NCBI GenBank assembly: GCA_001875345.1
Contig: MIZA01000025.1
Coordinates: 1-53,175 of the forward strand
From: Marine Group III euryarchaeote CG-Epi1
Lineage (GTDB): Archaea > Thermoplasmatota > Poseidoniia > MGIII > CG-Epi1
DNA length: 53,175 nt
Direction: 5' to 3'
The notes beneath the pieces were generated by a model, which saw only the letters and a program-made list of their open reading frames with translations, ran no database searches and was not told the DNA's origin. Shown here in pieces: positions 5,490-7,545 of this stretch; position 1 is the stretch's first letter; the number at the start of each line of letters is the position of its first letter. The translations under genes and the position numbers were made by a program.

Positions 5490-5882
5490 ATGGAAGAAAC
5501 AATATCACCATTGACGTCTATACCAACTTTGAGGCAGTTGGCAATGCCAAAAGATACTAATGCCCTTGGTACAATATTTGGTGGTGTAATTTTAAGCCAA
5601 ATTGATCAAGCTGCAGCAATTGAAGCTCATAAATATCACAAAGGAGCAGTTGTAACTGTGGCCATGGATGAAATCGAGTTTAAGCAACCTGTTTTTGTTG
5701 GTGATGTAGTTTCCTATTATGCAACCACTCATAAGTTAGGCAGAACATCAGTCACTATAGACGTTCATGTTTTCGCACAGAGGCAATTTGCTGAAGAAGG
5801 CAAATTTATACCTGTTACGGAAGCTAGAGCAGTTATGGTTGCAGTAGATTCAGACAATAAACCAATAGCATTGAATAAGTGA
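5490..5882 (+). CDS. YciA-like acyl-CoA thioesterase (hotdog fold)
   Basis: A 130-residue hotdog-fold protein. It carries the acyl-CoA thioesterase motif DTNALGTIFGG followed by the helix LSQIDQAAAIEA, whose Asp is catalytic in YciA relatives. FKQPVFVGDVV and a terminal ARAVMVAVD strand complete the fold. It probably hydrolyses short- to medium-chain acyl-CoAs in the cytoplasm, which could relieve CoA trapping during the branched-chain amino-acid breakdown encoded elsewhere in the window (inference). Its TGA overlaps the GTG start of the LysE-family gene by 3 bases. Confidence 0.88.
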   Translation: MEETISPLTSIPTLRQLAMPKDTNALGTIFGGVILSQIDQAAAIEAHKYHKGAVVTVAMDEIEFKQPVFVGDVVSYYATTHKLGRTSVTIDVHVFAQRQFAEEGKFIPVTEARAVMVAVDSDNKPIALNK

Positions 5883-6472
5883 ATATCCCTTTACTAATTG
5901 CAGCCCTAGTTTTCTTAATTCCGATGTACATAACACCAGGTCCAAACAATATCCTTTGTGCAGTTCATGGTTCTCAGCACGGTTTTCGGGCTACAATACC
6001 CTTGATTTCAGGCTTTGTGATTGGTTGGTTTGTAATGGGATTATTCGTAGCGCTCACGATTGATTTCTTAGAGCAAAATACAGGTTTACTAACATATTTG
6101 ACAATGATTGGGGCATCTTACATGATTTATCTATCTTACAAAATAGCTACTTCTAAACCACTTGATGATGGTCCAAATGAGAGTCAGAGATTAACGCCTC
6201 TGACGGGAGCCATGTTACAATTTGTTAATGGTAAAGCTTGGATTCACGATATAGTTTTGTTGGGTAGTTTTGGGACTATTTTTGGAACTGGTATTTTGGC
6301 AAAGATGACTTTAATTATTTTTTCTATTATTCTTTGTCTACCTTTTGTTGCTCTATGGGCTGGCTTCGGTACATTCTTAAGAAATTTTTTTACTTCTCCC
6401 GAATCGTCGCTAATGTTAAACAGAGTAATGGGTTTTTCATTATTTATCGTGGCAGTGTGGCTTCTTGTTTAA
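5879..6472 (+). CDS. LysE/RhtB-family amino-acid exporter
   Basis: A 197-residue membrane protein with about six hydrophobic segments. The first segment carries the LysE signature: M-Y-I-T-P-G-P-N-N, then a G-S-Q-H-G-F-R loop and a second helix with SGFVIGW. LysE/RhtB proteins export amino acids or their analogues. Here the likely role is overflow efflux in an amino-acid-degrading cell, but the substrate cannot be predicted. The start is GTG at 5879, overlapping the thioesterase stop (GTGA), so the two genes are probably translated together. Confidence 0.85.
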   Translation: MNIPLLIAALVFLIPMYITPGPNNILCAVHGSQHGFRATIPLISGFVIGWFVMGLFVALTIDFLEQNTGLLTYLTMIGASYMIYLSYKIATSKPLDDGPNESQRLTPLTGAMLQFVNGKAWIHDIVLLGSFGTIFGTGILAKMTLIIFSIILCLPFVALWAGFGTFLRNFFTSPESSLMLNRVMGFSLFIVAVWLLV

Positions 6473-6478
6473 AATATA

Positions 6479-6544
6479 GCCTCTCAGCACTCATAGGGCT
6501 CTTCAAAGCACAAGGCTCAGCCGCAATATTTACATCACAGAGGC
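6479..6544 (-). ncRNA. Candidate archaeal box C/D 2'-O-methylation guide sRNA (possible tRNA-Met C34 guide)
   Basis: Read on the minus strand, the gap between the LysE-like and lipA genes has the full archaeal C/D layout. There is a 5' stem GCCTC (6544-6540), C box GTGATGT (6538-6532), an 11-nt guide (6531-6521), D' box CTGA (6520-6517), C' box TTGAAGA (6506-6500), a 12-nt guide (6499-6488), D box CTGA (6487-6484), and GAGGC (6483-6479) closing the stem. Guide lengths of 11 and 12 match the family. The D guide pairs with a target CACUCAUAGGGC. Five bases from the D box this points to the C of CAU, which fits C34 in an elongator tRNA-Met anticodon loop, a known archaeal C/D target. The D' guide target (CCGCAAUAUUU) is unidentified. 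A TATA-like AATAAATTATT lies at about 6569-6579. Confidence 0.7.
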
Positions 6545-6568
6545 CTATGCCTAGTGGGTAGTGCAAAA

Positions 6569-6579
6569 ATAATTTATTG
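6569..6579 (-). promoter_or_regulatory. TATA-like box for the C/D sRNA
   Basis: AATAAATTATT on the minus strand is centred about 28-30 bases before the predicted sRNA 5' end at 6544, the expected archaeal spacing. It lies next to the lipA promoter on the other strand (TAATATTATTA at 6585-6595), so the two units appear to be divergent. Confidence 0.4.
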
Positions 6580-6618: not shown

Positions 6619-7545
6619 GTGCTAGCAAACAAAAAACCTAAGAGGTTGCCAGAATGGTTCAAAGTTACCTTACCTTCAGGTGAGGATATGCAGCGTTATA
6701 ATTCAACTACTTCTTCTGTTAAGGACAATAAATTACATACTGTGTGTGAGGAAGCAAGGTGTCCAAATATTCACGATTGTTGGGGTAGAGGTACCGCAAC
6801 TTTCATGGTTGCGGGAAAAGCTTGTACACGAGGCTGTCGTTTTTGTGCAGTAGATACAATCCGCAATCCACCACCTCCAGATGAAGATGAGCCAATAAAG
6901 CTAGCAGAAGCGATAAAGAATATGGGCTTGACATATTCAGTAATTACTGTAGTAAATAGAGACGATATGGATGATGGAGGTGCACTCCACTACAAGAAAT
7001 GTATAGACAAAGTACATGAAATATGCCCTAAAGTTGGTATTGAATTCTTGTGCAGTGATTTGAGTGGCAATGTTAATGCGTTAGAATTTTTATTAGATAA
7101 TTCACCGCTTACTGTGTTTGCTCATAATGTTGAAACAGTTAGAAGACTTACACCAAGAGTTAGAGATCCGAGGGCTACATTTGATCAAAGCTTGTTAATT
7201 TTGAAAAAGGCTAAAGATTTCAGACCAGATATAATTACTAAGACAAGTATAATGCTTGGGCTTGGTGAAACAGAAGAGGATTTGTTAAGCGCATTCAGGG
7301 AGTTAAGAGATGCTAAAGTTGACTTGTTGACTTTAGGCCAATATCTTTCCCCAGGTCCTAGGTACCATCCAGTGGTGTCTTTTCCTTCACCTGAAACTTT
7401 TGATAGCCTTGCCCAGATAGCAAAAGAGATGGGTTTCAAAGCGATTGCCTCAGGTCCAATGGTTCGTTCATCTTACAGGGCAGAATCTTTAGTTGCTGCA
7501 GCAAAAGGCGAAACATTTGATATTGAATTGAAGGTGGTAGCATGA
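6619..7545 (+). CDS. lipA: Lipoyl synthase
   Basis: A 308-residue radical-SAM enzyme that inserts two sulfurs into protein-bound octanoyl groups. Both iron-sulfur clusters are visible: the auxiliary cluster cysteines C43, C48 and C54 (motif CEEARCPNIHDCW) and the radical-SAM CxxxCxxC at C69, C73 and C76. The C-terminal RSSYRAES supplies the conserved Ser ligand region typical of LipA. The start is GTG at 6619, matching both the TATA-box distance and family length. It is the first gene of an operon with all subunits of a branched-chain 2-oxoacid dehydrogenase and lipB. Its end overlaps bkdA1 by 4 bases (ATGA). Confidence 0.95.
   Translation: MLANKKPKRLPEWFKVTLPSGEDMQRYNSTTSSVKDNKLHTVCEEARCPNIHDCWGRGTATFMVAGKACTRGCRFCAVDTIRNPPPPDEDEPIKLAEAIKNMGLTYSVITVVNRDDMDDGGALHYKKCIDKVHEICPKVGIEFLCSDLSGNVNALEFLLDNSPLTVFAHNVETVRRLTPRVRDPRATFDQSLLILKKAKDFRPDIITKTSIMLGLGETEEDLLSAFRELRDAKVDLLTLGQYLSPGPRYHPVVSFPSPETFDSLAQIAKEMGFKAIASGPMVRSSYRAESLVAAAKGETFDIELKVVA

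Follow-up and report, generated by a model that had tools for sequence, protein, structure and literature searches.

In haloarchaea, a separate C/D sRNA guides Cm34 of the intron-containing tRNA-Met; this sRNA pairs with a portion of the intron, so that methylation takes place before splicing (PMC2584109). This mechanism has been published for Haloferax, with 18 candidates listed (PMC2584109), and sR-tMet has been given as the guide (PMC4033218). Two further systems resemble it in part: sR49 of Pyrococcus shares the predicted target, Cm34 of tRNA-Met, and is likened by target alone (PMC2584109), while human SNORD97 and SCARNA97 act in C/D RNPs to methylate the same base, C34 of elongator tRNA-Met, but are eukaryotic, work as an RNP pair and are comparable by function alone (PMC6601510). 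A sequence-only reading of the DNA studied here had proposed a box C/D sRNA with the same target and had stated that modification of C34 by such an RNA is established in other archaea.

The window, by which we mean the whole analysed stretch of 53,175 nucleotides from a Marine Group III (MGIII) euryarchaeote, belongs to an assembly of 1.18 Mb in 25 contigs that is 87% complete. Read from position 6544 to 6479 on the minus strand, the element is GCCTC T GTGATGT AAATATTGCGG CTGA GCCTTGTGCT TTGAAGA GCCCTATGAGTG CTGA GAGGC. Its parts and surroundings are as follows.

5879-6472, plus strand: LysE-like gene (name by our own reading)
6479..6544, minus strand: entire box C/D sRNA gene, 66 nt (sequence, descriptor, alignment)
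6479..6483, minus strand: 3' half of closing stem, GAGGC; GGGGC in relatives (alignment, stem-pair check)
6484..6487, minus strand: D box CUGA (alignment)
6488..6499, minus strand: D guide GCCCUAUGAGUG, invariant; pairs with A31-A37 and intron start GGGU
6492, minus strand: G of the D guide at D+5, paired with C34 of pre-tRNA-Met
6500..6506, minus strand: C' box UUGAAGA (alignment)
6507..6516, minus strand: D'-C' spacer GCCUUGUGCU, possible GC-N5-GC mini-hairpin
6517..6520, minus strand: D' box CUGA (alignment)
6521..6531, minus strand: D' guide AAAUAUUGCGG, probably targetless; length and sequence vary among relatives
6532..6538, minus strand: C box GUGAUGU, terminal U fixed across MGIII copies
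6540..6544, minus strand: 5' half of closing stem, GCCUC; GCCCC in relatives (alignment, stem-pair check)
6565..6575, minus strand: TATA-like box AAATTATTTTT, kept in relatives; putative promoter
6619-7545, plus strand: lipA (name by our own reading); the sRNA lies in the gap between the LysE-like gene and lipA

The boxes stand in the archaeal C/D order inside a closing stem, both guides fall within the range of about 9-13 nt, and the earlier description of this strand and interval proved exact when box order, 11- and 12-base guides, 10-base spacer and 5-bp stem were read again. A loose descriptor requiring C, D', C' and D boxes at normal spacings matched the window once, at 6479-6544, and gave no match in 300 first-order Markov randomisations of the window. 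The TATA-like box has its centre about 26 bases upstream of the 5' end of the sRNA, within the gap shared with the divergent lipA. Against the assignment stands the long D'-C' spacer, with 10 nt ahead of a C' box of 7 bases, compared with mostly 4-5 in the family. The RNA folds modestly better than its shuffles (z = -1.4); such modest fold stability is usual for C/D RNAs. Judged by its layout and conservation, the minus-strand element at 6479-6544 is a real box C/D guide sRNA gene.

The sRNA carries the C'-D guide-D core UGANGAGCCCUAUGAGUNCUGA that characterises the sR-tMet and sR41 family. It shares with sR-tMet (RF02163, haloarchaea) the core GAGCCCUAUGAGUGC-GA, the target C34 of an intron-containing elongator tRNA-Met and the use of intron bases, and differs from it in a longer D'-C' spacer, another D' guide and a C box ending in U. 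The core of sR41 (RF01126), UGAaGAGCCCUAUGAGcgCUGA, is the same at all but one consensus position, whereas the part from C to D' does not align. Rfam at gathering cut-offs found nothing but a tRNA over the window, with no call of sR41 or sR-tMet. On the gap alone (161 bases), sR41 scored 26.0 bits (E = 1.3e-4, cut-off 54) and sR-tMet 18.4 bits (cut-off 50), and both models aligned the same C'-guide-D part. The covariance search that the sequence-only reading had suggested thus recovers the core, at scores below both cut-offs. These cut-offs belong to narrow models, and we therefore call the sRNA a counterpart that would act in the manner of both, and file it in neither Rfam family.

An elongator tRNA-Met gene was not found in the window's own assembly, where only initiator and Ile2-like tRNA-CAU genes were present; these two were rejected as guide targets, with 7 bases pairing. 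The fit was therefore demonstrated in the sister genome G010, whose sRNA is identical and whose lipA has 97% identity, and in other relatives. A pattern search located the elongator gene in nine genomes of the family, six of which also hold the sRNA. In all nine, a 31-base intron starting with GGGU follows A37, the gene reading ...GTCGGACTCATA|GGGTAAAAATAGTTCCGGCTATGCCTGGGAC|ATCCGA..., and a splicing motif can be read as the anticodon stem, a 3-base bulge ACA, the helix CUCA/UGGG and a 3-base bulge UAG. Excision of the 31 bases leaves a normal 77-base tRNA. Because of the intron, ARAGORN does not call this gene, which it misses at eleven loci (L053, L057, L058, L068, L072 and L193-L198), and in routine annotation the gene would seem absent.

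Against ACUCAUA|GGG, the D guide forms 10 Watson-Crick pairs, followed by one G-U pair with the next U, and its first base stays unpaired. The duplex energy is -18.5 kcal/mol with the precursor, compared with -8.3 for the spliced tRNA-Met and -8.2 for both Ile2 and the initiator. The guide base five from the D box lies opposite C34 (D+5), a fit that holds in all six genomes carrying both genes and that bears out the proposed assignment to C34 of elongator tRNA-Met. The guide predicted GGG after A37, and the tRNA gene, located afterwards, has exactly GGG at the start of its intron; in the relatives, the guide thus spans the exon-intron junction of the elongator pre-tRNA-Met. The target string given earlier, CACUCAUA, needs slight correction, in that position 30 is G, opposite the unpaired first guide base, and it is the intron that supplies the strength otherwise lacking. 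The proposed comparison of the guide with the genome's own tRNA-Met failed for lack of the gene in that assembly, but succeeded in G010 and other relatives, with the pairing running into the intron.

As the D guide pairs across the junction, the substrate would be the unspliced precursor, and as C34 sits at D+5 in a pairing that needs intron bases, methylation must precede splicing. From this complementarity, the sRNA almost certainly guides a methyl group onto the tRNA-Met anticodon before splicing. The D guide pairs with the intron-containing precursor over A31-A37 and GGGU, with C34 at D+5; in the mechanism that we propose, L7Ae, Nop5 and fibrillarin would bind the boxes and 2'-O-methylate C34 ahead of intron removal. 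Pairing with the intron adds about 10 kcal/mol of binding in comparison with the two other tRNAs that have a CAU anticodon, the initiator and tRNA-Ile2. The pairing also takes in the CUCA of the splicing motif's central helix, and the guide would therefore have to leave before splicing. That both this CUCA strand, part of the bulge-helix-bulge, and the 5' splice site are covered, as read from the sequence, could suggest that the guide chiefly slows or chaperones splicing at the junction, with methylation secondary. We consider this very unlikely, given that intact boxes and the C34 register are features of a methylation guide, and that haloarchaeal members of the sRNA family are reported to methylate C34 (PMC2584109, PMC4033218). 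The minus-strand element is thus, with high probability, the gene of a box C/D sRNA that would guide C34 of unspliced tRNA-Met, as the MGIII counterpart of sR-tMet and sR41.

Homologous gaps were collected by a lipA search over the family, yielding seven relatives from two genera of one MGIII family. The sRNA precedes lipA in 7/7, and the alignment of this gap, which had been put forward as a check, shows boxes and D guide conserved in all of them. The seven distinct sequences agree throughout the D guide and the C', D' and D boxes, and the C box is GTGATGT or ATGATGT in every copy of the clade. Its final T, which the sequence-only reading had listed among the imperfections, is fixed in the clade. 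All five closing-stem pairs hold in the seven distinct sequences: where the 5' half reads GCCCC in place of GCCTC, the 3' half has changed to match, and the changes comprise one compensatory U-A/C-G double and one G-C/G-U, which alone amount to little covariation. The D' guide drifts in length (9-11) and sequence. The gene on the far side of the sRNA changes between relatives, conservation stops sharply at the 3' stem, and the stretch towards lipA, including the TATA-like box, is kept. sRNAs of identical type occur in five contigs of MGIII euryarchaeotes or Candidatus Poseidoniia (L077, L143, L167, L180, L095). In members of a third, GC-rich genus (L039-L043), the region upstream of lipA lacks the element.

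The fixed position upstream of lipA in seven relatives, together with conservation of the intervening stretch, would also be expected of a plus-strand cis-acting lipA element (leader, operator or riboswitch) in which the C/D pattern is incidental. We regard this as barely conceivable: the guide matches a tRNA precursor at 11 contiguous positions in the correct register, methanogens, haloarchaea and DHVE2 have the core in different genomic settings, and conservation follows the boxes and the guide while the D' guide drifts.

These other settings emerged from a scan with TGANGAGCCCTATGAGTNCTGA over one genome per species (257 billion bases), in which about 0.5 chance matches were expected. The 22-base C'-guide-D core was present in at least 116 archaeal contigs. 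Among the matches listed, all titles were archaeal, covering Methanosarcinales, Methanothrix, Methanoperedens, Methanomassiliicoccales, haloarchaea, DHVE2, Thermoplasmata and one Diapherotrites. At 103 of the 121 sites examined, the core came with both a C and a D' box and with a stem of 3 bp or more; there were 20 different stem sequences, and the D' guides were nearly all distinct (88). At three sites, including that of Diapherotrites, the C and D' part could not be recognised, and these matches may be due to chance.

The D' guide of the window's sRNA is probably without a target. None had been named in the sequence-only reading, and comparison with MGIII rRNA loci likewise gave no convincing match; SSU and LSU genes were searched for in the own genome and not found. 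An 8-base match to tRNA-Ser(CGA) lay on the non-RNA strand and was rejected. At nine loci in other Thermoplasmatota (L103, L110, L112, L114, L133, L134, L146, L154, L175), the D' guide is conserved as AAGAGGGUCAG and fits 23S rRNA AUGACCCUCUU over 10 bases, with D'+5 at the C after AUGA, which we take to lie near E. coli C1920. By this complementarity, the sRNA in those organisms seems to serve two targets, tRNA-Met and 23S. This precedent and the retained D' box favour a second target for the window's sRNA as well, be it an rRNA or a further tRNA. Such a double function is nevertheless unlikely here, since the D' guide varies within the family, the best rRNA-locus match, about 207 bases before 23S in the TATA-box region AATATTATATACCCC, was rejected as chance, and one targetless guide is common in tRNA-targeting sRNAs (PMC7994747).

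Over-long D'-C' spacers often contain an inverted repeat, as in GC-N5-GC at 6507-6516 of the window and GGGCG-CAA-CGCCC in L103; besides the window, such loci include L089, L103 and L112. It is as if a small hairpin stood in for the usual tight D'-C' turn. Both GC pairs of the window's mini-hairpin are invariant across relatives, so that nothing covaries.

We extended the analysis to 245 Thermoplasmatota genomes using three pattern searches, for the guide (at most one mismatch), for an elongator gene with a GGG intron and for an intronless gene, with a tRNA-context filter. The guide was present in 43/62 genomes with a GGG intron versus 0/70 intronless genomes (Fisher p ~4e-20, uncorrected for relatedness). 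Families differ as blocks, and part of the pattern is expected to reflect shared ancestry; within one family (f14), a single intronless genome lacks the guide and 21 genomes have both intron and guide. The 19 intron-bearing genomes without a guide at this threshold, six of them in family f25, may represent diverged copies or real losses, and 16 guide-bearing genomes had no captured elongator gene. The six in f25 (G068, G085, G088, G184, G205, G254) belong to one genus and have a GGG intron, while f25 members G169 and G233 have both intron and guide.

We propose, tentatively and at somewhat short of an even chance, that intron and guide are kept or lost together, that the first intron bases serve as an address marking one of three CAU tRNAs, that the pairing sets methylation before splicing, and that the guide is gone throughout Thermoplasmatota wherever the intron has been lost. 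The mechanism itself is known; what is new is the MGIII branch and the phylum-wide tie to the intron, and a literature search found no match joining 'Marine Group III' with 'snoRNA'. With this sRNA, the uncultured MGIII joins the archaea in which the wobble base of elongator tRNA-Met has a guide of its own. The family is old and widespread, and the two Rfam models overlook this branch of it. The survey of 245 genomes also makes testable whether some archaeal tRNA introns persist since a guide RNA needs them to distinguish the CAU tRNAs.
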